From: Roseburia sp. 831b
GTDB taxonomy: Bacteria > Bacillota > Clostridia > Lachnospirales > Lachnospiraceae
NCBI RefSeq assembly: GCF_001940165.2
Contig: NZ_CP135162.1
Coordinates: 919,501 to 983,500 of the forward strand
DNA: 64,000 nt
Direction: 5' to 3'
Positions 23,920-42,080 of the stretch are shown piece by piece. Made by a program: the position numbers and the translations under genes. A model generated the notes under the pieces. It worked only from the letters and a program-made list of their open reading frames with translations, did no database searches and was not told where the DNA came from. How positions within the stretch are numbered: position 1 is the first letter of the stretch; every line of letters starts with the position of its first letter.

Positions 23920-25407
23920 ATGGAAAAAATAAGTGAAAACAGAGAATTCAATCTCTATCAGGATATGAAAGAGAGAACCAACGGAGAACTCTATATCGGG
24001 GTGGTAGGTCCGGTCCGAACCGGAAAATCGACGTTTATCAAAAGGTTTATGGATTTGATGGTGCTCCCTTTTATGGAAGATGAGGCGATGAAGGAGCGAA
24101 CCATGGATGAACTGCCACAGTCTGCGGCGGGCAAGACGATTATGACAACAGAGCCAAAGTTTATACCACAGGAGGCGGCACAGATTCGCTTAAACGATGA
24201 AAATACGATAAAGGTTCGCCTCGTGGACAGTGTTGGTTTTATGGTAAATGGTGCATCCGGTCATATGGAGGGAAATGGAAACCGTATGGTAAAAACGCCT
24301 TGGTCAGAGGAGGAAATTCCATTTGTGGAGGCAGCGCAGATTGGAACCGAAAAAGTGATTAAGGACCATGCGACGATTGGCATTGTCATCACAACGGACG
24401 GAACGATTGGTGAAATTGAGAGGGAAGCCTATGTGGAGCCGGAACTTAAAGCAGTGTCACAGCTTAGCCAGATTGGAAAACCATTTGTAGTTGTATTGAA
24501 TTCCAAGAAGCCTTACAGTGATGAGACGATAAAACTGGCACAATCGCTGCAGGAAGAATATGTAACGCCTGTCATTCCGGTAAACTGTGAACAGCTTCGA
24601 AAAGAGGATGTCAACCGGATTTTAGAAAGCATGTTATACGAATTCCCAATCAGCCGGGTAGAATTTAAAATCCCAAAATGGACGGAGATGCTGCCACAGG
24701 ATCACCGCATGAAACAGGCCATGATAGCGAAGGCAAAAGAAATTTTATCTTCCATGCGAAAAGCAAGAGATGTTGCGAAAAAATACGAAAATCCAGAGGA
24801 ATATATCAGCAATATTATCTTAGAAGAACTTGACCTTTCCAATGGCTGTGTAAAAATCCGGATGGATCTTTTTGAAAAATATTATTACGAGAATATGAGC
24901 GAACTTACCGGTGTGCCAATTCAGGGAGAATACCAGTTGATAGCAATGGTAAAAGAGATGGCAGAACGGAAAGAATCCTATGAAAAAATTGCGGACGCCT
25001 ACGAGGCGGTTCAGATGAAAGGGTATGGCGTGATTCGCCCACAGTTATCGGACATTTCCCTAGAGGAGCCGGTATTGATTCGCCATGGAAACAAATTTGG
25101 GGTAAAGATGAAAGCGACATCCCCTTCGGTACATATGATTAAGGCGAATATTGAGACAGAGATTGCGCCGATTGTCGGAAATGAAGAGCAGGCAAACGAT
25201 TTGATTGCTTATATCAAGCAAGGGGCGCAGAGCGATGAGGGTGTCTGGGAGACGAGTATTTTTGGAAAATCATTAGGAGAACTGATGGAAGACGGCATCC
25301 GCAATAAGATTATGTTAATGGATGATGAATGCCAGATGAAGCTGCAGGATACCATGCAAAAAATCGTCAATGACAGCAACGGAGGACTTGTCTGCATTAT
25401 CATTTAA
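23920..25407 (+). CDS. spoIVA: Stage IV sporulation protein A (spore coat morphogenetic ATPase)
   Basis: 495-residue ATPase that polymerises on the forespore surface to form the base of the spore coat. The Walker A loop is GPVRTGKST (residues 30-38). The TRAFAC-class GTPase-like fold and the C-terminal VCIII match SpoIVA. VDSVGF near residue 107 is the Walker B region. It is made in the mother cell in known spore formers, usually under sigma-E. It is isolated between malQ and a purine gene. Its ribosome binding site lies in the arm of a long hairpin. Confidence 0.95.
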   Translation: MEKISENREFNLYQDMKERTNGELYIGVVGPVRTGKSTFIKRFMDLMVLPFMEDEAMKERTMDELPQSAAGKTIMTTEPKFIPQEAAQIRLNDENTIKVRLVDSVGFMVNGASGHMEGNGNRMVKTPWSEEEIPFVEAAQIGTEKVIKDHATIGIVITTDGTIGEIEREAYVEPELKAVSQLSQIGKPFVVVLNSKKPYSDETIKLAQSLQEEYVTPVIPVNCEQLRKEDVNRILESMLYEFPISRVEFKIPKWTEMLPQDHRMKQAMIAKAKEILSSMRKARDVAKKYENPEEYISNIILEELDLSNGCVKIRMDLFEKYYYENMSELTGVPIQGEYQLIAMVKEMAERKESYEKIADAYEAVQMKGYGVIRPQLSDISLEEPVLIRHGNKFGVKMKATSPSVHMIKANIETEIAPIVGNEEQANDLIAYIKQGAQSDEGVWETSIFGKSLGELMEDGIRNKIMLMDDECQMKLQDTMQKIVNDSNGGLVCIII

Positions 25408-27430: not shown

Positions 27431-27483
27431 ACCCTTTGGTGTGGACAAGGGTACCGGAGTCGTTTTGGAACACAAAACGACTC
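27431..27483 (+). promoter_or_regulatory. alaS leader with two stem-loops
   Basis: ACCCTT (27431-27436) pairs with AAGGGT (27447-27452). Directly after it, GAGTCGTTTTG (27457-27467) pairs perfectly with CAAAACGACTC (27473-27483) around GAACA. No T-run follows the second stem, and the T-box core GGTGGNACCGCG is absent, so this is neither a clear terminator nor a T-box. It may affect mRNA stability or alaS translation. Confidence 0.5.
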
Positions 27484-27525
27484 ATTAAAATGTGCCCAAA
27501 TACAGTTTTTGGAGGAAGTTTAAAA

Positions 27526-30186
27526 GTGAAGAAGTTTTACGGAGAAAACGAACTGCGTAGAATGTACCTTGACTTTTTTGAGAGCAAGGGACATCTTAAG
27601 ATGAACAGTTTTTCATTAGTACCACATAATGATAACAGTTTATTATTGATCAATGCCGGAATGGCACCATTAAAACCATATTTTACAGGACAGGAGATTC
27701 CACCAAGAAGAAGAGTGACAACCTGTCAGAAATGTATTCGTACCGGCGATATTGAAAACGTTGGTAAGACAGCAAGACATCTGACATTCTTCGAAATGTT
27801 GGGTAACTTTTCTTTTGGTGATTATTTTAAACATGAAGCAATTGCCTGGAGTTGGGAATTCTTAACCAAAGTATTAGGCTTGGAAGAAGACAGACTTTAT
27901 CCTTCCATTTACGGAGAGGATGATGAGGCTTTTGATATCTGGACCAAAGAAGTGGGTGTTGCACCGGAACGTATCACAAGATTTTACCGTGATCCGGAGA
28001 CCGGAGAGTGCGATAACTTCTGGGAACACGGCGCAGGACCATGTGGACCATGTTCTGAGATTTATTATGACCGTGGAGAAAAATACGGTTGTGGCAGCCC
28101 TGACTGTAAAGTTGGCTGTGACTGTGACCGTTTCATGGAAGTTTGGAACAACGTATTTACCCAGTTTGAGGGAGATGGCAAGGGCGGTTATACAGAACTT
28201 GCCCAGAAGAACATTGATACCGGTATGGGATTAGAGAGACTTGCAGTTGTAATGCAGGATGTAGATTCTGTTTTTGACATTGATACAATGAAAGCAATCC
28301 GTGATAAAGTCTGTGAAATCTCCGGCAAGACATATCAGACAGATGCAATGGATGATGTATCCATTCGTCTGATTACAGACCATATCCGTTCTTCAACTTT
28401 CATGGTATCCGATGGAATTATGCCTTCCAATGAAGGACGCGGTTATGTGCTCCGCCGTATCATCCGTCGTGCAGCACGTCATGGAAAGATGTTAGGAATT
28501 CAAGGCAATTTCTTAGACAAGATCGCAATGGTTGTCATCAACGAAAGTAAAGACGGCTATCCGGAATTAGAAGAGAAGAAAGATTTCATTTTGAAAGTCT
28601 TAACGCAGGAAGAAGAAAAATTTGCAAAGACAATCGATCAGGGTCTTGCAATTTTAGATGAGATGGAGAAGAAAATGCAGGAGAAAGGACAGAAGGTACT
28701 GTCCGGTGACGATGCATTTAAGCTTTATGATACTTATGGATTCCCAATGGATTTGACACAGGAAATCTTAGAGGAAAAAGGCTTCACCATTGACGAGGAA
28801 GGCTTTCAGAAGGCAATGGATGTGCAGAGAGAGACTGCAAGAAAGAATCGTAAGACAACAAACTATATTGGTGCAGATGCAACCGTATATGATGAGATTG
28901 ATCCAGCCATCACATCTGAATTTGTTGGCTATGACAATCTGAGTGTTACATCAAAAGTATCGGTTCTTACCACAGAGACAGAGCTTGTAGAAGCATTGTC
29001 GGAAGGTGAAGTGGGAACTATTATCGTAGAAAAGACACCATTTTATGCTACCATGGGTGGCCAGCAGGGCGATAAAGGTGTGATTCGTACTGCAAACGGT
29101 GAATTCAAGGTCGAAGATACCATCAAATTATTAGGTGGAAAAGTAGGTCATATCGGTAAAATGGTAAGCGGTATGATTCAAAATGGCGAGGAAGTGGAGC
29201 TTGTTGTTGACGCAGCACTTCGTGCAAAGACATGTAAGAACCATTCTGCAACCCACCTGTTACAGAAAGCACTCCGTGAAGTACTTGGTACACATGTAGA
29301 ACAGGCAGGTTCTTATCAGGATGCAGACAGAACACGTTTTGACTTTTCACATTTCCAGGCTATGACACCAGAGGAAATTGCAAAAGTAGAACAGATTGTC
29401 AACGAGAAGATTGCAGATGCTCTTCCGGTTGTGACAGAAGTAATGTCTGTGGAAGATGCGAAAAAGACAGGTGCAATGGCACTCTTTGGTGAAAAATATG
29501 GCGAAAAAGTACGTGTCGTATCCATGGGAGATTTCTCAAAGGAATTCTGTGGTGGTACCCACGTAAAGAATACCGCAGAGATTACAACTTTCAAGATTAT
29601 ATCTGAGAGTGGTGTTGCTGCTGGTGTACGCCGTATTGAGGCAATCACAGGCGAGAATGTTTTTGCATATTATAAAAATATGGAGGATGAGCTTGAGAAG
29701 GCTGCAAAAGCTGCAAAAGCAACTCCGGCAACTTTGGTAGAAAAGATTGAACACATGATGACAGAAATCAAGAGCCTTAACAGCGAGTTAGAGTCTTTAA
29801 AGAGCAAGGCTGCAAAAGAAGCACTTGGTGATGTTATGGATCAGGTTGTGGATGTAAAAGGCGTTAAACTTCTTGCAACAAGTGTTCAGGGCGTTGATAT
29901 GAACGGTCTTCGAGATTTAGGAGATCAGTTGAAAGGCAAGCTTGGCGAAGGCGTTGTTGTTTTAGCATCCGAGTCAGACGGTAAAGTGAACTTAGTTGCA
30001 ATGGCAACAGAGGAAGCAATGAAGAGCGGAGCTCATGCTGGAAATCTGATTAAGGCAATCGCCGGAAAAGTTGGCGGTGGCGGCGGCGGCCGTCCAAACA
30101 TGGCACAGGCAGGAGGAAAAAATCCTGCTGGTATTCCAGATGCAATTGCAGAGGCAAAGACAGCTTTGGAGAGTCAGGTAAAATAG
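27526..30186 (+). CDS. alaS: Alanyl-tRNA synthetase
   Basis: 886-residue class II synthetase charging tRNA-Ala. I place the start at GTG 27526 (KKFYGENELRRMYLDFFESKGH follows), with GGAGG 10 nt upstream; 30 further upstream codons would translate the leader hairpins. Motifs: FFEMLGNFSFGDYF in the aminoacylation core, the editing-domain zinc ligands HSATHLLQ (HxxxH) and CGGTHVKNT (CxxxH), and the C-terminal GGGGGGRPNMAQAGG of the C-Ala domain. It is a single-copy housekeeping gene with a strong terminator downstream. Confidence 0.96.
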   Translation: MKKFYGENELRRMYLDFFESKGHLKMNSFSLVPHNDNSLLLINAGMAPLKPYFTGQEIPPRRRVTTCQKCIRTGDIENVGKTARHLTFFEMLGNFSFGDYFKHEAIAWSWEFLTKVLGLEEDRLYPSIYGEDDEAFDIWTKEVGVAPERITRFYRDPETGECDNFWEHGAGPCGPCSEIYYDRGEKYGCGSPDCKVGCDCDRFMEVWNNVFTQFEGDGKGGYTELAQKNIDTGMGLERLAVVMQDVDSVFDIDTMKAIRDKVCEISGKTYQTDAMDDVSIRLITDHIRSSTFMVSDGIMPSNEGRGYVLRRIIRRAARHGKMLGIQGNFLDKIAMVVINESKDGYPELEEKKDFILKVLTQEEEKFAKTIDQGLAILDEMEKKMQEKGQKVLSGDDAFKLYDTYGFPMDLTQEILEEKGFTIDEEGFQKAMDVQRETARKNRKTTNYIGADATVYDEIDPAITSEFVGYDNLSVTSKVSVLTTETELVEALSEGEVGTIIVEKTPFYATMGGQQGDKGVIRTANGEFKVEDTIKLLGGKVGHIGKMVSGMIQNGEEVELVVDAALRAKTCKNHSATHLLQKALREVLGTHVEQAGSYQDADRTRFDFSHFQAMTPEEIAKVEQIVNEKIADALPVVTEVMSVEDAKKTGAMALFGEKYGEKVRVVSMGDFSKEFCGGTHVKNTAEITTFKIISESGVAAGVRRIEAITGENVFAYYKNMEDELEKAAKAAKATPATLVEKIEHMMTEIKSLNSELESLKSKAAKEALGDVMDQVVDVKGVKLLATSVQGVDMNGLRDLGDQLKGKLGEGVVVLASESDGKVNLVAMATEEAMKSGAHAGNLIKAIAGKVGGGGGGRPNMAQAGGKNPAGIPDAIAEAKTALESQVK

Positions 30187-30243: not shown

Positions 30244-30597
30244 ATGAAATATTATGTATTGAAATATCGGCTACCGATGAGCCACAGCAGTACCATGCAA
30301 AAAGAAAACAGTCATCATCATGTCATCGAAATAACGGTGCAGGCGGAATACGACCAGCAGACATTTATTGAATTCCAGGATATGGAAAAGGTGCTAAATC
30401 AATGTCTGAACCCATATAAGAATCAATATCTCAATGAGATGGAAGAGTTTCATGAGGATACCAGTATCGAGAATATCACAGAAGTATTTTATGAGAAATT
30501 ATCACAGGCATTTGCAAATGAGGGGTGGAACCTTACCAAGATAGAAGTTGGCGAGAATCCGCTAAGGGTCTACATCATACAAACCAATCATGTTTAA
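30244..30597 (+). CDS. 6-pyruvoyltetrahydropterin synthase-like protein of the exosortase G system (1)
   Basis: 117-residue small protein with a 6-pyruvoyltetrahydropterin/6-carboxytetrahydropterin synthase-like fold signature, matching the PTPS-related protein of exosortase-G loci. Three histidines expected to bind zinc are present: H14 and H24-x-H26. The catalytic cysteine that normally precedes the HxH motif is not seen, and the protein is shorter than pterin enzymes (about 120-150 residues), so ordinary pterin synthesis is doubtful. It opens the locus, directly after the alaS terminator and 15 nt before the Firmicu-CTERM protein. A paralogue lies at 35596. Confidence 0.7.
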   Translation: MKYYVLKYRLPMSHSSTMQKENSHHHVIEITVQAEYDQQTFIEFQDMEKVLNQCLNPYKNQYLNEMEEFHEDTSIENITEVFYEKLSQAFANEGWNLTKIEVGENPLRVYIIQTNHV

Positions 30598-30611
30598 GGG
30601 AGGAAGGAAAA

Positions 30612-32522
30612 GTGAGTCTGAAAAAATTACTAGGAACGTCGTTGCTATGTTTTTCATTGGTGTTGTCGAATGTGACAGCATTAGCAGCAGATCAAAACAA
30701 TGTGTCAGACAATAAGGAACTGACATCGGAAACACAGGAACAAACAGATACTATGCAGGAAGTACAGACACAGTCAGAATCTCAAGAAAATGAAGATGGT
30801 TCTGCGACTCCAGAACAGAGCGAAGAAAACCCGGATGCACAGGATACAAATGAGAATGGCAGGGGGGAGCAGACCACAGAAGGACAGAACGAAGAAATAC
30901 AAAATACAGAGTCTGAGGAAGCGGGTGTGGAAACGCAAAGCGCAGATGGAGTTTCCCTGGAACAATATGCAGGGGGCAGAACGATTCAGGTAGATGGAGA
31001 TCCAAAAGAGTGGGATGGAATTCCTTCTTATACTTCAAATGATGGCAGTGTTGCAAAATGGTCTGTTGCACAGAATGATGAGTATGTGTATTTTTATGTG
31101 CAGGAAAATGGCGGAAACAAGTGGGGATTACCAATCACGAATACAAAAGCCGCGATTTCCTACGCATCAGGACTTTCTAACAGTAATTTGAATGGAATCG
31201 GATTCGCATTTGAAAACAGCAGTCTTGTTTTAAAAGATGGCTGGTATGGAAACATCAATGGAACACTGTCTGGTTTTTCACCGAGCCAGGAGCAGGATAA
31301 ATATGAGATTGAGTTTGCAGTGCCACAAAGTTATTTCGCAGAACCTGATTATACACTTACATATTGCGGTACGAGCATTGCATCAGGTGATATTCCCGTA
31401 CTAAATACATTCCCGGAATACGAAGAAGAAAAACCGGTCTATAACGGAATTACAATCGATGGTAACTTCTCTGACTGGAATGCGGTAGAAAAGACGTCTG
31501 TCGACGATGGCAGCATTATCGATGCAGCAATGGTATTTGATGGAGACTGGATTTATATTTACTTAAAGGATACTGGAAACGGTGCGGCATTCCATGCAGG
31601 TGAAAGAAGTCATGGTACCTATGAACTTTTAACGGATACCGGAAGAAGAACCAGTTTTGTATTAAGAGAAAATGGGATTGAAGGAGTAAAGGATGCTAAG
31701 GTGAAGTATTCAAACGATCAATATGAGATTGCAATCCCGGCTTCAAACCTAAAAAAATACCGCTCTACGATTTCATTTGGATATGCGCAGGCAAAGACAC
31801 CAATGATAAGCGGTGTATCGAATCTGCAGGGCGGCGGTAACATCGACGGCTCATTTTCGGGAATTACAATTGATGGTAATTTTGATGACTGGGCAGATTA
31901 TAACCATCAATTGATTGAATATTCTACGAATGGTGATTATGGAGATGATGCGGACGGTGCCTTATATCTGAGTGATCATACCCTATATGGTCATGTGAAA
32001 ACATATCGTCTGAGAAATAACAATCCATATTATCAGGTGGAACTGCGCTTTAATGAGGTTGACAGTCAAAACATTTACTTTCAGTTTATTACAGTAGACG
32101 ATAGCGGTAACATCAACTGGAATCCGCAGATGGATTATGACGGAACGACAAAAGAGTACTATATGATTGATATGAGAGGCTGGCATGGGGCATCTACTTT
32201 GACAGAACTCGAAGACGAAGGATATGGAAATAAGATTTTAGGTCATGCTTATATTCGAATGGGCAGCAGTGATGATACAGAGTTAGAATATGAGATTGAT
32301 TTGGAAAAACTGTCTTCTTACATTTCAACAAGCAACAGTACGCCTTATGAAATGTCTGTAACAGATATGAAGACGATTCAGGCAAAATACCAGAATATCG
32401 GTGACCAATGGGTAACCATTGCAGGTACTTCATCAGGTCCGGTTGTCGGTGTTGTGTTATGTATCTCCACCGTTGCATGTGTATTGGCATATCGAAGAAG
32501 AAAACAAAAAGGAATTGCATAA
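30612..32522 (+). CDS. Firmicu-CTERM surface protein with three carbohydrate-binding-like modules (exosortase G substrate)
   Basis: 636-residue exported protein. GTG 30612 follows GGAGGAAGG; a signal peptide (LLGTSLLCFSLVLSNVTALA) is cut about ALA|AD. A Glu/Gln/Thr-rich low-complexity region follows (about 30-115). Three repeats start with VDGDPKEWDG, IDGNFSDWNA and IDGNFDDWAD (about residues 124, 280 and 418), each followed by beta-rich sequence resembling CBM9/DOMON-like domains. The C-terminus is a Firmicu-CTERM-type signal: SSGPVVGVVLCISTVACVLAYRRRKQKG. The next gene is the exosortase XrtG, which I infer processes this tail. Confidence 0.8.
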   Translation: MSLKKLLGTSLLCFSLVLSNVTALAADQNNVSDNKELTSETQEQTDTMQEVQTQSESQENEDGSATPEQSEENPDAQDTNENGRGEQTTEGQNEEIQNTESEEAGVETQSADGVSLEQYAGGRTIQVDGDPKEWDGIPSYTSNDGSVAKWSVAQNDEYVYFYVQENGGNKWGLPITNTKAAISYASGLSNSNLNGIGFAFENSSLVLKDGWYGNINGTLSGFSPSQEQDKYEIEFAVPQSYFAEPDYTLTYCGTSIASGDIPVLNTFPEYEEEKPVYNGITIDGNFSDWNAVEKTSVDDGSIIDAAMVFDGDWIYIYLKDTGNGAAFHAGERSHGTYELLTDTGRRTSFVLRENGIEGVKDAKVKYSNDQYEIAIPASNLKKYRSTISFGYAQAKTPMISGVSNLQGGGNIDGSFSGITIDGNFDDWADYNHQLIEYSTNGDYGDDADGALYLSDHTLYGHVKTYRLRNNNPYYQVELRFNEVDSQNIYFQFITVDDSGNINWNPQMDYDGTTKEYYMIDMRGWHGASTLTELEDEGYGNKILGHAYIRMGSSDDTELEYEIDLEKLSSYISTSNSTPYEMSVTDMKTIQAKYQNIGDQWVTIAGTSSGPVVGVVLCISTVACVLAYRRRKQKGIA

Positions 32523-33119
32523 ATGAAGTATCTCATAGGTCTGATTCTTGGAATCATTTGGTTATATGTATTACACGTATTAAAGAAAAGTAAATTGAAT
32601 TTCTGGCACTTCGCAGTGGGAAGTGCCGGACTTTTCATTTTTATGATGGTATATTTGCGTCCGGTGCTTACACAGCCGTCGGCTAGAATTATTGCGGCGA
32701 TTGCCGGAATTCCAGGAAATCTGTTTCACTTATATACCGCGTATTTTAAATATGGAATTATCTTTGTACAGTCAAAACAGGGAGCCATTTCTTTGATGAT
32801 AGACTTTGAGTGTTCTGGAATCATCGAAATCATGGCATTTCTTTCACTGCTTTTGTTTTACAATGTGTATACAAGGGTGGAAAAAGTCATTGTCGGGCTG
32901 TCCGGAATCAGTGCGCTTGTGGTTGCAAATGCAATCCGCATTACAATTATCTGCGTCATCATTCATTTTATGGGGGTGTCAGCATATTATGTGGCGCATG
33001 CATTTATCGGACGAATCGTTTTTTATGCATTTTCCGTTGCCTTGTATTTCTATGTTTTCACAAAACCACAGATTATCAAGCAAAGGGTAGGTGGCTTCCG
33101 CTATGCAAATCATAAATAA
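32523..33119 (+). CDS. xrtG: Exosortase family protein XrtG
   Basis: 198-residue multi-pass membrane transpeptidase-like protein. The exosortase/archaeosortase catalytic triad is complete: C97 in DFECSGIIE, R139 in ANAIRITI and H159 in YVAHAFIGR. About six hydrophobic segments surround it. It starts immediately after the stop of the Firmicu-CTERM protein and overlaps the next glycosyltransferase gene by 17 nt, indicating tight co-translation. By analogy with other exosortases it should cut the C-terminal sorting signal and join the protein to a surface acceptor; the acceptor for XrtG is not known to me. Confidence 0.88.
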   Translation: MKYLIGLILGIIWLYVLHVLKKSKLNFWHFAVGSAGLFIFMMVYLRPVLTQPSARIIAAIAGIPGNLFHLYTAYFKYGIIFVQSKQGAISLMIDFECSGIIEIMAFLSLLLFYNVYTRVEKVIVGLSGISALVVANAIRITIICVIIHFMGVSAYYVAHAFIGRIVFYAFSVALYFYVFTKPQIIKQRVGGFRYANHK

Positions 33120-34467
33120 TTTTGTGAATTCGTTTGTCTTTTGGGCGGCGTGGATTATTATTCCTGTGATTATGGAGATTGTTCCGGCGTTTGGAAGCAT
33201 TTATGTTTTAATCAAAAAGCATATCAAAAAGAAGGTTTACGAAGACCCGATTATGTACCCGGAGATTACTCTGATTATCCCGGTCTACAATTCGCAGGAC
33301 TCGTTAGAAGAGTGCATTCGCTCCATTCATGAGAGCGATTATCCGAATGACAAAATCAAAATTTATCTGGTGAACAATCAGGGGCAGGATAATAGTTTTG
33401 AGGTTTTCCATGAATGTCAGGAAAAATATCCAAATCTTATGATGCAATGGATGAACGCGATGCAGGGAAAATCCAAAGCATTAAACCTTGCACTGTTTAA
33501 CAGTGACGGAAAGTACATCATTCACATTGACAGCGATGGACAACTTGAAAAGAATGCCCTAAAAAATATGGTAAAAAAATTTGAGGCGGATTCGTCGGTT
33601 GACTGTATGACAGGAGCAATTTTGACAGAGCCTTCCATGATTGAGCAGTATCACGGAATCTTTGCAAAGCTGCTTCGAAAGTTAGAGTTTATGGAGTATG
33701 CACAGGCGTTTTTGGCAGGAAGAAACTATGCGTCTGAAACGAACAATATTTATACGTTATCAGGGGCTTTTTCTGCGTTTCGAAAATCAGCCGTGTTAAA
33801 ATCACAGCTTTATAACACGGACACCATTTGCGAGGATACCCAGATTACGTTCCAGATGCGCTATATCCAGAAGAAAAAGGTACATATCTGTGAAAATGCG
33901 ATTTTCTTTGTAGACCCGATTGAGGACATGAACAAATTGTATACACAAAGACAACGTTGGCAGCGCGGCAGTCTTGAGGTGTCGCATCAGTTTTTAAAGA
34001 AGGAGCTTCATCCATACAAATTATTTACCAATGTAACGGTTCGTACGCTCATGTATGACCATACGTTCGCATTCCCTAGAATGATCTGGTATCTGGCGTT
34101 GCTTTGCCTGCTTTGTATGAATTATTCGTTTTCTTTGATTATTTATTCGACGTTGTTTATTTTCTTTTTGTATATTGTGATTGGCTATTTTTACTTTGCC
34201 TCGACAATCGGGTTTTTATCTGAGTTTAAAGAACTCCGCAGCTATTATAAAAAACAGTGGTACGTGGTTGCATTATTGCCGCTTTTTAATTTTCTGGTCT
34301 TTTTCATCCGTTTTGCAGGGGTAATCAATAGCATTAACACAGACAGTGCATGGAAAACAAGAAATTTAACCGAGGAAAAACAGGCGTTTATGGATACGGT
34401 AAAGGATGATGTAAAAGGAATATCCGGTTTTTATCAGAAAATAAAGGACTGGGTAAACGCGCAGTAG
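33103..34467 (+). CDS. Processive GT2 glycosyltransferase of the exosortase G system
   Basis: 454-residue membrane glycosyltransferase. One N-terminal transmembrane helix is followed by a GT-A domain with ITLIIPVYNSQDSLEEC, the metal-binding HIDSDG (DxD type), the EDTQITF acid block and YTQRQRWQRGS (the QxxRW signature of processive enzymes such as cellulose or hyaluronan synthases). Several C-terminal helices follow. ATG 33103 follows AGGTGG and overlaps the end of xrtG. It probably builds or extends the glycan to which the XrtG product is attached; sugar and linkage are unknown. Confidence 0.88.
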   Translation: MQIINNFVNSFVFWAAWIIIPVIMEIVPAFGSIYVLIKKHIKKKVYEDPIMYPEITLIIPVYNSQDSLEECIRSIHESDYPNDKIKIYLVNNQGQDNSFEVFHECQEKYPNLMMQWMNAMQGKSKALNLALFNSDGKYIIHIDSDGQLEKNALKNMVKKFEADSSVDCMTGAILTEPSMIEQYHGIFAKLLRKLEFMEYAQAFLAGRNYASETNNIYTLSGAFSAFRKSAVLKSQLYNTDTICEDTQITFQMRYIQKKKVHICENAIFFVDPIEDMNKLYTQRQRWQRGSLEVSHQFLKKELHPYKLFTNVTVRTLMYDHTFAFPRMIWYLALLCLLCMNYSFSLIIYSTLFIFFLYIVIGYFYFASTIGFLSEFKELRSYYKKQWYVVALLPLFNFLVFFIRFAGVINSINTDSAWKTRNLTEEKQAFMDTVKDDVKGISGFYQKIKDWVNAQ

Positions 34468-34504
34468 CAGGAGAGCGTGAAAATGGCACAGGAATGGAGA
34501 TTTT

Positions 34505-35566
34505 ATGGACACAAAGCATAAAAAGTATTTTATGAGAGTTACCGTGGTTGTGTTTGTGATTGCGGTGCTGATTGGAGTATTTGGTTACTACGAAGTAAGA
34601 CAGTATGACGAGAGTATTTTAGAGATATATGCAGAACAGCAGGATTCTTATGTAAAACTGGTATTAGATCAGATTAATCTCCAAAAAGACAGAACAGATG
34701 ATGAGATGATTGATGATATTTTAAATTCTTTGGTTGCCTCAGATAAAAGATATTGGACGCTTACAAAAGACCAGGATATTTTGTATGTGAAAGATGTTTC
34801 CGAGACAAATCGATACAAAGGATTTACCTCGGACAGTTATTATCTTTCAACCGGCGGAAAAGCGTTTGTAGACAGCTTAGAGACAGACCGTATTATTCAC
34901 GATATGATTGAGATTGATCAGGAGAGATATGTCGCATCCGGCACGAAATTTTCCTACTTAGGCAATGAGTATAAAATCTGTCTTTTGACTTATGAAAAGG
35001 TTATTTTAGATAACAATAAGCTGTTACAAACCAGAATTATGATTTGTATCGTATTATTTGAGTTACTTCTTATTTTAATTCTTGCAATAATGGCTGGAAC
35101 ACAGCTGATTGACAAGAAAAACGAGAAGATAGAAAAGCTTAGCCAAAGGGTTGTTACGCTGAACAAAGAAGTAGAAGGCTTGGAAGATAAGCTGGCAATG
35201 GAGTTTTCTTATAATGCCGGAAACAGTATTTTCCATGAGAGTGTACTGACGCAATTCCTTGAAAAATTGGAAAAACGCAAAGTTGCACCGCTCACACTGG
35301 CGATGTTTCAAAGAGACAAAAAGGCAGATATCAGAGAGTTTTTTAAGAAAGTTGACAAAAGTGCAGGAAAAAAATATCTGAAATTTGAAATCGGGTCAGA
35401 CCGGCTGCTGTTACTTTTTTTTAGTATGAAAGATGTGGAATTAGAGCCGAAACTTCAAAAGATAGAGCAGGAAGGAATCACGTATCTTTGTGAATTTACG
35501 ATAGAGGATGATTACCAGACCTATCAGAGCCAATATGAAAAGTTTTTAAAGAAAAATAGTTTGTAA
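34505..35566 (+). CDS. Two-transmembrane sensor-like protein of the exosortase G locus, unknown family
   Basis: 353-residue protein: TM helix about residues 10-28, an extracellular domain of about 150 residues with CACHE-like character (YWTLTKDQDILYVKD...), a second TM about 175-198, a coiled coil (KNEKIEKLSQRVVTLNKEVEGLEDKL) and a cytoplasmic domain of about 110 residues. The last domain (PLTLAMFQRDKKADIREFFKK...DRLLLLFFSMKD) has the rhythm of a degenerate GGDEF domain but no GG(D/E)EF motif. It may sense an external cue and control polymer synthesis through protein contact. ATG 34505 follows GGAG. I cannot place it in a named family. Confidence 0.6.
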   Translation: MDTKHKKYFMRVTVVVFVIAVLIGVFGYYEVRQYDESILEIYAEQQDSYVKLVLDQINLQKDRTDDEMIDDILNSLVASDKRYWTLTKDQDILYVKDVSETNRYKGFTSDSYYLSTGGKAFVDSLETDRIIHDMIEIDQERYVASGTKFSYLGNEYKICLLTYEKVILDNNKLLQTRIMICIVLFELLLILILAIMAGTQLIDKKNEKIEKLSQRVVTLNKEVEGLEDKLAMEFSYNAGNSIFHESVLTQFLEKLEKRKVAPLTLAMFQRDKKADIREFFKKVDKSAGKKYLKFEIGSDRLLLLFFSMKDVELEPKLQKIEQEGITYLCEFTIEDDYQTYQSQYEKFLKKNSL

Positions 35567-35595
35567 GAAAAGTTTGATAAAAGGATGCAAAAAGA

Positions 35596-36063
35596 ATGAT
35601 TGAAAAACAGTTATTTCGTGAATACCGTTTTAAATTTTATCTGAATATGAACCATTATATTATTATCAATGGAGCAGAGGGACAGCTTCATCCGCATACC
35701 TGGGAGTTTACCTTCCTTGTTATCAAAGAAAAAAGCGATTTTGTGCAGTTTAATGTATTTGAACGGTTGATAGAGGATTACCTTGAAACATACCAGGGAA
35801 AGATTTTAAATGAGATGGACCCGTTCCAGACCATTGTTCCTACCTTAGAAAATGTGACGGACTGCTTTAGTGAGGATATTCGAAAGATTTTAAAAGAGCA
35901 TGGCGGTGAACTGATTTCGACAGAAAGCAGTGAGACACCGACACGAAGCTACATTATCAATTATGAGAAGGAGCCTGACTTTTTAAAACAGATGGAACGG
36001 ATTAAGCAGGACCGGATGGATGAAATTATTGATGAAGTGTTAGACAGTGTTTTAGAGTCATAA
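35596..36063 (+). CDS. 6-pyruvoyltetrahydropterin synthase-like protein of the exosortase G system (2)
   Basis: 155-residue paralogue of the protein at 30244. The PTPS-type zinc histidines are H20 (NMNHYIII) and H32-x-H34 (LHPHTWEF); again no catalytic cysteine precedes HxH. The C-terminal 30 residues (QMERIKQDRMDEIIDEVLDSVLES) form an extra charged helix absent from the first copy. It follows the sensor-like gene after 29 nt and precedes the PTPS_related membrane protein by 12 nt. Two PTPS-like copies in one locus suggest a structural or ligand-binding role rather than pterin synthesis. Confidence 0.72.
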   Translation: MIEKQLFREYRFKFYLNMNHYIIINGAEGQLHPHTWEFTFLVIKEKSDFVQFNVFERLIEDYLETYQGKILNEMDPFQTIVPTLENVTDCFSEDIRKILKEHGGELISTESSETPTRSYIINYEKEPDFLKQMERIKQDRMDEIIDEVLDSVLES

Positions 36064-36075
36064 GGAGCAGGAAAA

Positions 36076-38520
36076 TTGCGCAAAAAGTTACAGTTCATAG
36101 GTTGTATTGCGATATATGGAATTTTAGCAGCGGGACTTGTATGGTTGCTTTATGAAAAAAATGTTTTCCCGATGGGGGAACATATATGGGAGTCTTTGTA
36201 CAAGGCTGACTATCTGTTAGATGGAATAAAAAGTGGAAATGGCATTTTATATTATGATTCCTTTAGCGGAAACGGTTCCGAATTCGTTCGTTTCGCAGAG
36301 CCGCTTCCGTGTATTCTGCTAACCTTTTTTGCATTCCTTGGAAACCAGAATGCAGTAGTAACGTATGCTTTATTTGTGGGCACCGTTTTTTTCTTGTCTG
36401 CAAGCAGTATTTTTTGGATCGGAAGAAAAGAAAACAGAAGTTTTATGGGATTCTTGCTTGGACTGGCATATTTTTTCATGCCGGCAAACCTTCATATGCT
36501 CTTTTCTAAGGGAAATGTAGGAGAAAGTATTGTACTGGCATTTTTACCACTGTTCTTCTGGCAGTGCTATCGTTTTGTAGAAGAAAAAAGCTTAAAAGCA
36601 GTTGTGGCGGTTTCGATTCTTTCCGTTCTTTTTGTGATGTGCAGCGTTTCTTATACCATAATGGTAGTAACGGCAGCTGTTTGTTACCTGTTATTGGATG
36701 GAATCATAAATGGAACCTTTCGAAATGGCTTAAAACTTGTTCCGGCGTTCCTGCTTGCCTTTTTGTGGAATGGCATCTGGTTATGTGCCTATTTAAAAAA
36801 ATATGGCACAATTCCAAAAACGAGTGCAGAAAAAGCATCTTTTTATCAGGCACTTTTGGATTCATTAAACCCAATGCAGGCAATGAGAGAGGGTACACAG
36901 TTTTGGTATCTGGGAGTGTCCGTTTTCGTCTTATTATTGTTTGGAATTTTATTTAGTAAACGGAAAACAAGTTCCTTTTTTGCGGCAGGGATTTTGTTTG
37001 TGATTTTTTCGACAACGGCATTATCCGGTGTGATAAAAAGCCTGCCGGGCTTTAAAAATATGGACATGGCTGCATTTTTCCCAATGGTGACAGCTTTCGT
37101 TTTGGTGGGATTTTTGTTATGGAAGACACTTAGAAAAGAACTGGTGTTCATCTGTGCAATCGGATTGTTTTTCGATCTTATGGTGGCAGTATCCGGCTAT
37201 GCGCCAACCCTGTTATCACAGGATATAAACGGTCAGTTACAGAAGGAAGCAGATACGATGTTTATCGAAGAAGCAGGAAGCCTTACGCAGCAAAGAGTTG
37301 CAATTTTTGCAGAGCAAAAGGAACGTTCCATTGCAAAATACCTGCTTTCAAAAAGCGGAAAAGAACTTTCGGTGACACAAGGATGTGAGTATGAAGCGGC
37401 AAGTATTCCAAATTACCTGGGACAGTTAGAACAGGCATTATCAGATGGAAAATATCTCTATCTGTTTGACCGCTGTCTGGAACTTGGGGATGATACAGTT
37501 ATTGTTGAAAAAGAGAAACTCTGGAATGGAGACGATGATGTTAAAAAATTAACAAACTGTGCAGAGCAGGTCGGATACGTGAAAAAAGAGGAGAACAATA
37601 AATACCTGATGTTCCATATTAAGACAGACGGAACGTTTGGAGTTAAGAGTGAATACCAGGCGATTGGAATCGGAAGCAGCGCCGGTATGATGGCATTGCA
37701 ATATCCAAACATGCAAGAGACCTCCTCTACGAATCTAAATGACTATACCTATGAACAACTGTCAAAGTATCAGTGTATTTATTTGAATGGATTTACCTAT
37801 GATGATAAGGCGGCGGCAGAGCAGCTTATTACAAAACTAGGAGAAAACGGTGTAAAGGTCGTAATTGAGGCGAGTGGAATACCGGCTGATATTGTTTCAA
37901 AGAATCGGGAATTCTTAGGCGTGACATGCAATGATATTTCTTTTGAAAAAGGTTATCCCATTCTTTATACGGAGTCTGCAACGTATGACTGTAACCTGTT
38001 CGCAGATGGCTATGAGGACTGGAGGACGGTCTATGTGATAGGACTTACAAAAGAGCTTGGCTATTTTTATGAGAATCAGGATAAAATTGATTTTATAGGA
38101 ACCGCTGGAAACGATAATATTATCGTCATCGGGCTAAACTTAGGTTACCATGGAGCGTTGACAGGCGATCCGATGGTGGAAGAAATCTATGACGGATTGT
38201 TTGGGGTAGACCAGGATGTGCTGCCAGAGAGGGAACTTGTTCCGGTTCAGATTACTTACCGGGGAAATTCACTCTCCATCAAGGCAGACTCGGCTGTGAA
38301 TACAACACTTGCTTACCATGATACTTTTACCTGTGACAAGGAAGTGACGGAGCAAAACCAGTTACTTTATGTAAAAAAAGGAACAACGGACATCTCCATA
38401 AAGCCAGCCTATATAGGCGCAGGAGCATTTTTGATTTTTGTAGGATTTGCATTTGCAGTTCCGTATTATGATTATCTGATTGAGACCTCAAAGGGAAGGA
38501 AACAAAAAAATGAAAGGTGA
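36076..38520 (+). CDS. Large PTPS_related multi-pass membrane protein (GT-C-like)
   Basis: 814-residue membrane protein starting at TTG 36076, 8 nt after GGAG. About ten hydrophobic helices in the first 400 residues resemble a GT-C (YfhO/PTPS_related-type) membrane glycosyltransferase; LFSKGNVGESIVLAFLPLFF is the conserved loop. A large extracytoplasmic domain (about 400-780) and a final TM (about 775-800) follow, ending in a basic tail. An early acidic loop, KADYLLDGIKSGNG, may hold the catalytic aspartate. It probably transfers a lipid-linked sugar outside the membrane. It overlaps the next lipoprotein gene by 11 nt. Confidence 0.72.
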   Translation: MRKKLQFIGCIAIYGILAAGLVWLLYEKNVFPMGEHIWESLYKADYLLDGIKSGNGILYYDSFSGNGSEFVRFAEPLPCILLTFFAFLGNQNAVVTYALFVGTVFFLSASSIFWIGRKENRSFMGFLLGLAYFFMPANLHMLFSKGNVGESIVLAFLPLFFWQCYRFVEEKSLKAVVAVSILSVLFVMCSVSYTIMVVTAAVCYLLLDGIINGTFRNGLKLVPAFLLAFLWNGIWLCAYLKKYGTIPKTSAEKASFYQALLDSLNPMQAMREGTQFWYLGVSVFVLLLFGILFSKRKTSSFFAAGILFVIFSTTALSGVIKSLPGFKNMDMAAFFPMVTAFVLVGFLLWKTLRKELVFICAIGLFFDLMVAVSGYAPTLLSQDINGQLQKEADTMFIEEAGSLTQQRVAIFAEQKERSIAKYLLSKSGKELSVTQGCEYEAASIPNYLGQLEQALSDGKYLYLFDRCLELGDDTVIVEKEKLWNGDDDVKKLTNCAEQVGYVKKEENNKYLMFHIKTDGTFGVKSEYQAIGIGSSAGMMALQYPNMQETSSTNLNDYTYEQLSKYQCIYLNGFTYDDKAAAEQLITKLGENGVKVVIEASGIPADIVSKNREFLGVTCNDISFEKGYPILYTESATYDCNLFADGYEDWRTVYVIGLTKELGYFYENQDKIDFIGTAGNDNIIVIGLNLGYHGALTGDPMVEEIYDGLFGVDQDVLPERELVPVQITYRGNSLSIKADSAVNTTLAYHDTFTCDKEVTEQNQLLYVKKGTTDISIKPAYIGAGAFLIFVGFAFAVPYYDYLIETSKGRKQKNER

Positions 38521-40663
38521 GAGAAGAAAAAAAGTGTTTTTGATGGGCGCACTGCTTTTTTGTGCGCTTTTGCTTGTGGGTTGTAACGGGAAAAGTGAAA
38601 ATCCACAGGAACCGGCAGATACCAAGGCAAGCCAGGCACAACAGTCTAAGGAAAAGAAAGAATATTATTTTAAAACAGAGGACAGCTATTTTGCAGTTTA
38701 TAATGGAAAAACTTATGAAAAAACCTATTTAAACGGCGTAAACTTAGGGTCTGGAAAGCCGGGATGTTTTCCGGGGGAACTTGGAATTACAAAGGAAGAG
38801 TACCTTCGCTGGTTTCAAGAGATTTCACAGATGAATTGTAATACCATCCGTGTCTATACAGTAATGATGCCATGTTTTTACGAAGCACTTTATGAGTACA
38901 ACGAGGCGGCAGAAAATAAACTGTATCTGTTTCAGGGAGTGTGGTATGACGAAGACCAGATTGTGAAGACGGAGGATGCCTACGATATCTATGATGAGGC
39001 ATTGTCAGATGCTTATGATTTGGTTGATATTATCCATGGCGATGCCGACCTAAAGCAAAAAGCAGGAAAAGCTTATGGAAAATACCAGTATGATGTCTCG
39101 GAATATGTGATTGGCTGGATTTTAGGGATTGAGTCGGATGCAGAGTTCGTGGGCGGAACAAATGAAAAGCATGCAGCGGAGTGCAGTTACCAGGGAGATT
39201 ATCTTGGTACCACGGAGGATGCAAATCCGTTTGAAACTTTTATGTGTAAACTCGGTGACCAGACACTTTCCTATGAGATGAAAAAATATCAGATGCAGCG
39301 TCCCATCAGCTGGAGCAACTGGCCGACGGCTGATATGCTTTCTCATCCGAATGAACCGGGGGCAGATCATGAAGATGCGGTGACCATCAATGTAGAACAT
39401 ATAAAAGCGACAGATGCATTTGAGGCAGGTGTTTTTGCATCGTATCACGTTTATCCATATTATCCAGAGTTTATCATGTATGATACGAAATATGCATCTT
39501 ACCAGAAAGAGGACGGAACACCGGATAATTATAAGGCATACCTGGAGGATTTGATTGCACAGCACACAGTTCCGGTTCTTGTGGCAGAGTATGGCGTTCC
39601 ATCTTCTAGAGGCTGTACCCATGAGAATCCGCTGACAGGATTTAACCAGGGCAATCTGTCGGAAAAGCAGCAGGGCGAGATGCTTGCGTCCATGGCGACG
39701 GATATCTATGACAGTGGTTATTGTGGTGGAATTGCTTTTACTTGGCAGGATGAGTGGTTTAAGAGAACCTGGAACACGATGGATTACTCAGATTCGGAGC
39801 GGAGAGCATATTGGAGTGATGTGCAGACCAGCGAGCAAAATTTTGGCTTGCTTGCATTTGATCCTGGAAAAGAGGAAACCGTGGCAAACGTGGATGGAGA
39901 CTTATCCGAATGGGAAGAAAGTGATGTGGTAGCCGGCGATGATTCCCTATCCATCTCGCTAAAGCAGGATGCGAGATACCTTTACATGCTGGTGCAGGGA
40001 AAAGACTTAAATCCGGAAAATCAAAGGATTTTAATTCCGCTCGATATTACACCGCAGTCCGGTTCAACAAAGTATGACACATTCGCATTTTCCCGTGCTG
40101 TGGATTTTGTGATAGATTTAAATGGAAAAGAAGACAGTTCCGTAAAAGTGCAGCATTATTACGACCGCTATACGTTTAGCTATCAACAGCTGGATAAGAG
40201 CCTGGATTTGACCGGATATGAGGATAAACAGGCGGATTCTTTTGTCCCGGTCTATCTGTGCTTAAACAAAGAGCTGGTTTTCCCGGAAACAAAGCAGGTA
40301 TTGGAATTTTCCAAATATGATACCGGAAAACTGCAATACGGAAATGGCAATCCGGATGCGGCAGATTATGACTCGTTATCGGACTTTTGTTATGGAGACC
40401 ATGCAGTGGAACTTCGGATTCCGTGGTCCATGTTAAACTTTAGAGATCCTTCCACAAAAGAAATCGAGGCAGATTTCCATGGAACAGGTGAATTAAGCGG
40501 ATACCAGATTGATGAGATTTATGCGGGTGTATGCACGGAAAATCAGTCTGTGGAGATGCAATCTTATACTTGGGATAACTGGGACCAGGTGATTTATCAT
40601 GAGAGATTAAAACAGTCCTATGACATTTTAAAGGATTGCTATGCAAACCTTAAGGTGCATTAA
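38510..40663 (+). CDS. Glycosidase-like lipoprotein with C-terminal carbohydrate-binding-like module
   Basis: 717-residue lipoprotein: lipobox LLVGC with C25, polar spacer, then a TIM-barrel domain (about 60-420). NGVNLGSGKPGCFPGELGITKEEY and NCNTIRVYTVM resemble clan GH-A beta-glycosidases or transglycosylases. Candidate catalytic glutamates are E208 (GWILGIESD) and E360 (VLVAEYGVP). From about residue 460, VDGDLSEWEESD begins a module like the three in the Firmicu-CTERM protein. It is the last gene of the locus. A role in trimming or remodelling the locus polymer is inferred; I cannot name the GH family. Confidence 0.72.
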   Translation: MKGERRKKVFLMGALLFCALLLVGCNGKSENPQEPADTKASQAQQSKEKKEYYFKTEDSYFAVYNGKTYEKTYLNGVNLGSGKPGCFPGELGITKEEYLRWFQEISQMNCNTIRVYTVMMPCFYEALYEYNEAAENKLYLFQGVWYDEDQIVKTEDAYDIYDEALSDAYDLVDIIHGDADLKQKAGKAYGKYQYDVSEYVIGWILGIESDAEFVGGTNEKHAAECSYQGDYLGTTEDANPFETFMCKLGDQTLSYEMKKYQMQRPISWSNWPTADMLSHPNEPGADHEDAVTINVEHIKATDAFEAGVFASYHVYPYYPEFIMYDTKYASYQKEDGTPDNYKAYLEDLIAQHTVPVLVAEYGVPSSRGCTHENPLTGFNQGNLSEKQQGEMLASMATDIYDSGYCGGIAFTWQDEWFKRTWNTMDYSDSERRAYWSDVQTSEQNFGLLAFDPGKEETVANVDGDLSEWEESDVVAGDDSLSISLKQDARYLYMLVQGKDLNPENQRILIPLDITPQSGSTKYDTFAFSRAVDFVIDLNGKEDSSVKVQHYYDRYTFSYQQLDKSLDLTGYEDKQADSFVPVYLCLNKELVFPETKQVLEFSKYDTGKLQYGNGNPDAADYDSLSDFCYGDHAVELRIPWSMLNFRDPSTKEIEADFHGTGELSGYQIDEIYAGVCTENQSVEMQSYTWDNWDQVIYHERLKQSYDILKDCYANLKVH

Positions 40664-41000: not shown

Positions 41001-41030
41001 GAAGCTGTCGCATATGCGACAGCTTCTTTT
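41001..41030 (+). terminator. rpsU terminator (perfect 26-nt palindrome)
   Basis: GAAGCTGTCGC/GCGACAGCTTC around ATAT (41001-41026), followed by TTTT, ends rpsU transcription. Confidence 0.85.
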
Positions 41031-41231: not shown

Positions 41232-41870
41232 TTAATATCCGAAATCCTGTCCAATCAAGATAACCTTGATTCGTCCGGGCTGACCGCTTCGTTTTGTTAT
41301 GACAGCCTGGTTACAGATGCAGTTCGGTGACAGACAGCTTGAACAGACGCAGGTGGTAGCACAAGGGGTCTTTATGCCAAGCCGGATGCAGTTCTTTGGA
41401 ACAGCAATCTGATGGATACGATGGAAAGCATCGTCTACCGTAGCAACAATTTTATTCATACCAGCCATGACAATGACCTGTTTTGGGCCATAGATAAGGG
41501 CGGCAACACGATTGCCGGTACCATCGATGTTGACAAGTTCACCAGCCTCGGTGATGGCATTGCTGCTCATAAAAAAGGTATCGCAGGAGAGTGCCTCGTG
41601 ATACAGTTTATCCCGTTCTTCCTGTGTTTTTGTATTTGCACGATCCAGTAACGTAAAATCAGAATCATAGCGGAGGGCAGTCATCATACCACATTCTTCT
41701 AAAGTCATAGAACCGCCATAGGAAACGGTTTCCCCTTTTTGAATGAAAGAGAGGGCTTTTTCCACTGCATCCATTGCAGTTTCACAATAATAACCTTCCA
41801 TATTTCTTTTTTTTAGATTCTCAATGACCGTCTGGGCAAGATGTTCGTTATAAATTTTTTGTGTACTCAT
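41232..41870 (-). CDS. LUD (lactate utilisation) domain protein
   Basis: 212-residue protein of the LutC/YkgG-like LUD domain family, which in other bacteria takes part in lactate oxidation. GETVSYGGSMTLEECGM, NAITEAGELVNIDGTGNRVA and VIVMAGMNKIV are typical. Near the C-terminus C.TTC.CSSC....CIC gives a cysteine cluster suggesting a metal or iron-sulfur site. lutA and lutB partners are absent, as for the many stand-alone LUD proteins of clostridia. Start MSTQKI at 41870 was chosen; an ATG four codons earlier would leave almost no gap to AAGGA. Confidence 0.85.
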   Translation of the reverse strand: MSTQKIYNEHLAQTVIENLKKRNMEGYYCETAMDAVEKALSFIQKGETVSYGGSMTLEECGMMTALRYDSDFTLLDRANTKTQEERDKLYHEALSCDTFFMSSNAITEAGELVNIDGTGNRVAALIYGPKQVIVMAGMNKIVATVDDAFHRIHQIAVPKNCIRLGIKTPCATTCVCSSCLSPNCICNQAVITKRSGQPGRIKVILIGQDFGY

Positions 41871-42080
41871 AGTAATCACCATATCCTTCCGTGAATGTGT
41901 AAATTTTTACACAATATTATCTTTTTCATCTTCACTATTTCAAGTTAAGTCTAATACTTTTGATTTCAGAATACAATGACTTGTTTCGCAGAAATTAGAA
42001 TGAAAAATGGATATCTTCTTCTTGCTTTTTTCAACTGGAATGATAGAATAGAAAAATATGGCATTTTAAGGAGGAAAGTG

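Follow-up and report, generated by a model that had tools for sequence, protein, structure and literature searches.

What does exosortase G (XrtG) do in a locus where it is accompanied by one candidate substrate and a set of glycosyltransferases? The XrtG family is established (NCBIfam), and our literature search found no published test of its chemistry; XrtG was named only in a report of transcripts (PMC12854382). The question is raised by a locus in the window (the whole stretch of DNA analyzed, 64,000 nucleotides from Roseburia sp. 831b). Taken alone the window is of moderate interest; comparative evidence makes XrtG function directly testable, and relatives with fused genes suggest how the enzyme works.

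Gene Content and Boundaries of the Locus

An earlier note on this DNA had described eight genes on one strand with overlaps or short gaps between 30244 and 40663; all ORF coordinates agree with that description, and the strand is plus. The features are as follows:

30244..30597, + strand, PTPS-like protein a (PTPSa; TIGR03112, 88.1 bits, cut-off 69.35)
30613..32522, + strand, Firmicu-CTERM surface protein (TIGR04145, 130.1 bits, cut-off 50)
32523..33119, + strand, XrtG exosortase (TIGR03110, 187.7 bits, cut-off 102.75)
33091..34467, + strand, XrtG-associated GT2 of processive-synthase type (TIGR03111, 629.7 bits, cut-off 363.95)
34505..35566, + strand, sensor: transmembrane (TM) segment, extracellular Cache domain, TM segment, coiled coil, and predicted degenerate GGDEF fold
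35596..36063, + strand, PTPS-like protein b (PTPSb; TIGR03112, 126.1 bits, cut-off 69.35)
36076..38520, + strand, PF10131 membrane protein with predicted GT-C glycosyltransferase fold and GATase-like domain (361.5 bits, cut-off 26.4)
38480..40663, + strand, lipoprotein with C-terminal DGxxxEW module, probably a glycosidase of clan GH-A type
41001..41026, + strand, strong terminator-like hairpin past the last gene (11 pairs, 7 of them G-C, T run)

A search with the exosortase-G family models, proposed in the earlier note, placed XrtG, GT2, the CTERM protein, and both PTPS-like proteins over the curated NCBIfam cut-offs. The locus is a real XrtG-type locus and looks intact. The island is flanked by alaS (27436–30186) on one side and by a LUD-domain gene on the opposite strand (41232–41882) on the other. 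For the CTERM gene, GTG 30613, preceded by a Shine-Dalgarno-like GGGAGG, is a more likely start than 30525, and the lipoprotein gene probably starts at ATG 38510. No Rfam element was detected in positions 24000–46000 of the window and no c-di-GMP riboswitch among 14 relatives searched. An 11-pair hairpin with a T-rich tail lies within the start of xrtG (32602–32630), which may be an attenuator or a chance product of coding sequence; this stretch has 18 terminator-like sites, more than expected from shuffling (mean 7.8).

The complete genome contains one XrtG and one Firmicu-CTERM protein (two model matches in a single frame), and the pairing is therefore one to one. The earlier note's reading of the locus as complete and as having a substrate of its own is supported, with a single candidate for that substrate.

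Joint Occurrence and Synteny

Among 200 genomes of the family, XrtG is present in 14. The CTERM model matches the same 14 genomes plus one more weakly (G133, E 3.7e-4, below cut-off), and TIGR03112 is above cut-off in exactly these 14, with weak sub-cut-off matches in four others. Strong PF10131 matches occur in 13 of these genomes; in the remaining one (G166) the XrtG contig is 7.6 kb long and ends 0.7 kb past the downstream PTPS gene.

Scanning GTDB contigs yielded 67 XrtG loci, 47 of which have enough flank for neighbor counts (20 with short flanks were left out). The downstream PTPS gene is present in all 47, GT-C in 46, CTERM in 46, and the sensor in 45 (the latter two by profile); in the sole CTERM profile miss (L077), a CTERM-like protein was recognized by eye. 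GT2 is listed for all 67 loci, its count of 46/47 in the flank-limited set being due to L023, where the GT2 frame overlaps XrtG. The upstream PTPS gene and the lipoprotein gene were found in 32 and 17 of the 47 loci, respectively. Thus, the gene set consists of a stable core and optional parts, and the grouping is far beyond chance. Loss of synteny in relatives, one of the outcomes that the earlier note had named as speaking against its reading, did not occur across the 67 loci (47 with enough flank), and the polymer-making set that it had placed beside XrtG was borne out by strong synteny.

Judged by XrtG, the closest relatives come from Lachnospiraceae records. The system extends over Lachnospiraceae, Syntrophomonas-type bacteria, and a conjugative Lactococcus plasmid; no XrtG was found in phages. 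At one locus (L121, 9028–10530), XrtG and a shortened GT2 are merged into one frame, which may indicate a decaying locus.

XrtG and Its Firmicu-CTERM Partner

The triad of XrtG is C97, R139, and H159, as previously claimed from the sequence, and it does not vary in any of the 80 sequences aligned (the window and 79 relatives, some of them near-copies). In a larger set of 99 XrtG rows, representing 96 different sequences, the Cys is kept in 95, and the four exceptions are all fused, motif-less forms. Copies of the window (L001–L003), a fragment (L083), and a locus without profile hit (L017) were left out of the trees; the merged frame of L121 was not in the 99-row tree, and a weak match (L122) was not counted as XrtG.

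The CTERM protein is built of a signal peptide, repeated DGxxxDW modules, the sorting motif IAGTSSGP, a TM helix, and a basic tail. A633, G634, and S636 (numbering of the frame from 30525) are invariant in 29 sequences, and AGxS is present in 54 of 63 separate CTERM frames (L018–L084). We take the modules to be carbohydrate-binding-like because of the DGxxxDW motif; no carbohydrate-binding Pfam match was detected in the 29 CTERM members, and no matching carbohydrate-binding family was found for the CTERM modules or the C-terminus of the lipoprotein. Membership of the modules in CBM9 was considered and dropped, as there was no Pfam match in these members, no solved homologue, and no hhalign link to the lipoprotein.

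Fusions of the Ectodomain and a Cys-Less XrtG Class

In seven protein clusters and in L057, a near-copy of one of them, CTERM is fused to XrtG such that the sorting helix is continuous with the first TM segment of XrtG. An assembly error at L057 is unlikely, as P0009, which is 98% identical, has 20 member sequences. All eight motif-bearing fusions keep the Cys (8/8) and an AGAS motif (8/8), indicating that catalysis matters in those lineages. The Cys-bearing fusions have at least two origins according to a separate tree; the 99-row quick tree, which only compares fused groups with each other, gives three changes overall between fused and unfused forms.

A different situation was observed in a deeper lineage (L113, L114, L116, and L117), in which a homologous ectodomain is fused to an XrtG whose Cys is replaced by Asn. 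Homology was tested for L114, whose fused ectodomain is 38% identical (E 4e-42) to the stand-alone partner protein of L115, a locus whose XrtG has the Cys. A wider search revealed 45 clusters of such Cys-less fused proteins (388–406 amino acids), some of them named Syntrophomonas. In place of C97, 32 of these clusters have N, 12 have S, and one has R; R139 is retained in 44 and H159 in 41. The DGxxxDW-type start of the ectodomain is retained in 44 of 45 cases, and the junctions contain neither AGxS (0/45) nor PxLG (0/45). The latter, not AGxS, is the presumed signal of Cys-bearing members of the deeper lineage and precedes the TM helix in five of them (L112, L115, L118, L119, and L120). On the tree, the four Cys-less rows group together, so that the joint loss of Cys and motif may be a single event and thus one natural experiment. 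Both Cys-less loci retrieved with enough flank (L114 and L117) still adjoin GT2 and PTPS-GT-C genes. A Cys at position 104, which might stand in for the missing C97, is found in 39 of the 45 Cys-less proteins and is also present in the Cys-bearing L115; six Cys-less proteins do not have it, and two have no Cys anywhere in the XrtG part.

With Cys and signal lost but Arg and mostly His kept, these fusions suggest that the CTERM signal is what the Cys acts on and that the important result is an ectodomain kept at the membrane next to the synthase. They also suggest a second, noncatalytic role for the XrtG core.

The ectodomain is also found on another partner: in L112, L118, L119, and L120, a CTERM domain lies at the end of GT-C, past a signal-peptide-like stretch (homology tested for L112). 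The searches behind P0009–P0015 and the 45 Cys-less clusters admitted only fused lengths, and the search for PTPS fusions described below excluded single-domain lengths; therefore, cluster counts are uninformative on the frequency of fusion.

PTPS-Like Proteins

The zinc-ligand histidines of PTPSa (H14, H24, and H26) are present in 39 of 39 sequences. In PTPSb, H20, H32, and H34, which correspond to the three-His zinc site, as well as E110 and E113, are invariant (63/63). On the other hand, no Cys occurs at positions 20–34 in any of the 63 sequences, and where PTPS enzymes have the catalytic Asp-His, position 66 is Y or F and position 67 is Q in 61 of them. PTPSb therefore has neither the catalytic Cys nor the Asp-His pair of PTPS/QueD enzymes, and the QueD model gives only 20.5 bits against a cut-off of 89.25. 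A PTPS-III-like arrangement, with Glu in place of the Cys, was ruled out, since 56 of the 63 sequences have Q, K, or R at position 28.

PTPS-like domains also occur as parts of larger proteins. Direct sensor-PTPS fusions occur in L088 and L091, and PTPS is fused N-terminal to GT-C in L077, L091, L092, L095, and L098 and in seven deeper loci (L112 and L114–L119); L091 has both types. In 45 clusters of multidomain PTPS proteins, 12 resemble the sensor-PTPS fusions in having two TM segments before PTPS (P0062 has an unrelated start and is possibly chimeric), and in 24 PTPS comes first and a hydrophobic segment follows it. Single sequences show fusion to a histidine kinase (P0069) or a Crp-type HTH (P0072). 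From the sensor-PTPS and PTPS-GT-C fusions we infer that the PTPS-like domain acts as a tethered module that passes signals from the receptor to the glycosyltransferase. No link of 6-pyruvoyl with exosortase was found in our literature search.

Sensor

According to structure prediction, the sensor combines a Cache receptor with a degenerate GGDEF fold. The GG[DE]EF motif of diguanylate cyclases is absent from all 61 sensors, and an ORF with this motif is present in only 5 of 84 loci. By sequence, the sensor gave three matches to solved chains, all weaker than E 0.5.

A c-di-GMP connection is suggested by a plasmid. In the XrtG locus of the conjugative Lactococcus lactis plasmid pBV60 (L085, 4413–10691), genes for a YGGDEF cyclase and an EAL protein adjoin CTERM-XrtG-GT2-PTPS; such a pair lies beside XrtG in only one of three plasmid loci. 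Other proteins were also noted near PTPSb: at L092 (5711–8332) a YfhO-family membrane protein occupies the position of the sensor, between GT2 and PTPSb, and at L089 (12117–13544), where no sensor was found, the gene immediately after PTPSb encodes an MCP-type protein that carries a zinc-binding CZB domain.

Glycosyltransferases and Lipoprotein

The QRQRW motif pointed out previously in GT2 lies at residues 286–290 and is invariant in 80 of 80 sequences, as are D147, D149, and D249 (motifs DSD, ED, and QRQRW). Against the PgaC/IcaA model, GT2 scores 132.1 bits, below that model's cut-off. GT2 is fused to an OpgB-like domain in 12 of 67 loci, a 13th being cut by the contig end. An LtaS-type assignment of the fused domain was dropped in favor of OpgB-like (1.9e-10 vs. 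1.5e-49 in L043). A search of the window's genome for a homologue of this domain, run without a positive control, gave no match.

The membrane protein that the earlier note had called PTPS_related matches PF10131. Its fold is predicted to be that of a GT-C glycosyltransferase; by sequence, no solved chain matched at E 0.1. In the first outer loop, Asp is found in 40 of 43 relatives, and the others have N (L030 and L043) or E (L048). The window protein has H36 in this column, so that an acidic residue is missing there; E35 and E39 are nearby. At L057 (13184–17182), a single open frame encodes both GT-C and an RmlD-type (dTDP-rhamnose pathway) domain, possibly a hint that the sugar is rhamnose.

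The lipoprotein had been called glycosidase-like, a label with weak support: the GH113 match (E 0.0034) is below cut-off, and no solved homologue was found by profile, but the lipobox C35 and the candidate clan GH-A residues E218 and E370 are invariant in 20 sequences.

Possible Function of the XrtG Locus

Considering the observed family membership, joint occurrence, residue conservation, and natural fusions, together with the predicted folds of two locus proteins, we consider it somewhat probable that the locus encodes a glycan synthase complex that is controlled by a signal and whose XrtG secures a single dedicated ectodomain at the membrane. The substrates, signal, and regulation, as well as the direction and end product of the XrtG reaction, are what we infer here. 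One membrane assembly would produce a cell-surface glycan when it is needed. The sensor would detect an outside signal with its Cache domain, and the signal would reach the glycosyltransferases by way of the degenerate GGDEF fold, the zinc-binding PTPS-like modules, or both; the ligand of these modules may be of purine or pterin type. GT2 would polymerize and export the chain, the GT-C protein would add sugars outside from a lipid-linked donor, the OpgB-like domain may add phosphoglycerol in some relatives, and the lipoprotein glycosidase may trim the product. XrtG would act at the AGxS sorting signal of the CTERM protein, and its job would be to fix the carbohydrate-binding-like DGxxxDW domain at the membrane beside the synthase. 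At the window itself, three points count against this model: the proteins are unfused, GT-C does not have the loop Asp, and no Rfam riboswitch was detected nearby. Among relatives, further points against it are the Cys kept in motif-bearing fusions, the possibly single origin of the Cys-less class, the Cys at position 104 as a potential substitute, the PxLG signal of the deeper lineage, and the small numbers of loci with a GGDEF/EAL pair or a GG[DE]EF ORF; the missing match of the CTERM modules and the lipoprotein C-terminus to a carbohydrate-binding family is another.

Alternatively, as in the reading of the earlier note, XrtG may be a classical sorting transpeptidase that cuts CTERM at AGxS and links it covalently either with a lipid or with the locus glycan. 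The invariant triad and the tripartite CTERM signal speak for this, and archaeosortase ArtA processes and lipid-anchors C-termini, as described in the portion of PMC7157517 available to us. It is the Cys-less fused class (45/45), with GT2 and PTPS-GT-C neighbors kept in L114 and L117, that argues against attachment to a mobile glycan, since ligation to a mobile polymer is evidently unneeded there; lipid anchoring as in ArtA is compatible with this class, and a lipid end product would still keep the domain at the membrane. We regard the transpeptidase as possible but rather unlikely. Another reading, in which XrtG serves the GT2 synthase mainly as a membrane subunit with a structural or glycan-handling role and CTERM is its uncleaved regulatory ectodomain, could explain why Cys-less fused forms mostly retain R139 and H159 and why the sorting helix doubles as the first TM segment of XrtG in Cys-bearing fusions. 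However, the Cys in 95 of 99 XrtG rows, with all four exceptions fused and motif-less, and the AGxS conservation in 54 of 63 separate CTERM proteins make this highly improbable.

A further alternative concerns the PTPS-like proteins, which might be enzymes making a pterin for the pathway. Invariant zinc ligands and ligand-motif glutamates in PTPSb would suit an enzyme, but the catalytic Cys and Asp-His positions are replaced, and relatives in which the proteins are fused to the sensor or GT-C, or are membrane-tethered, better suit a signaling module; there is little chance that pterin synthesis is the explanation.

Returning to the synthase complex, we tentatively propose a more specific version, which is more likely to prove wrong than right: XrtG would be an assembly enzyme and not an exporting sortase, fixing one glycan-binding ectodomain at the synthase and keeping it there, possibly as a lasting acyl-enzyme; fusion could replace the reaction, whereupon the Cys is lost; and the PTPS-like proteins would be a new class of ligand-sensing modules linking Cache receptors to membrane glycosyltransferases. 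Beyond what the earlier note had described, the analysis adds the predicted folds of two proteins (degenerate GGDEF for the sensor and GT-C for the PF10131 protein), the absence of catalytic residues from the PTPS-like proteins, and the network of fusions. The fusions open specific and cheap tests, namely, of Cys-less XrtG in glycan formation, of ectodomain location, and of PTPS-like modules as nucleotide or pterin sensors.

Comparison with Known Systems

Compared with the known XrtG/Firmicu-CTERM system, whose models TIGR03110, TIGR03111, TIGR03112, and TIGR04145 are all above cut-off here, the window adds the Cache-degenerate GGDEF sensor, the GT-C protein, and the glycosidase-like lipoprotein. 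The TIGR03766 transferase occurs on the Lactococcus plasmid and matches no window protein. The fusion network was not found in print in our literature search. Transcripts of an XrtG system have been reported in Lactiplantibacillus plantarum strains that also self-aggregate, according to the part of PMC12854382 available to us. A functional parallel is the gts operon of Lactobacillus acidophilus, for which the accessible part of PMC6123363 describes GtsA, GtsB, the c-di-GMP-binding PdeB, and a link to exopolysaccharide. Both loci combine a synthase-type GT2 with a degenerate c-di-GMP-type protein, but the degenerate partner is EAL there and of GGDEF fold here (PMC6123363, as far as accessible), and exosortase is never mentioned in the main text of that paper as available to us.

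The C-terminal domain of fused GT2 proteins resembles OpgB (phosphoglycerol transferase I) in matching NF009027 (E 1.5e-49 in L043); unlike OpgB, it scores 169 bits against a 572-bit cut-off and is fused to GT2. Finally, XrtG shares with the ArtA/PGF-CTERM system a membrane enzyme and a tripartite C-terminal signal. Unlike ArtA, which in the accessible part of PMC7157517 serves diverse substrates together with the lipid-head enzymes PssA and PssD, XrtG has one dedicated candidate substrate beside glycosyltransferases.
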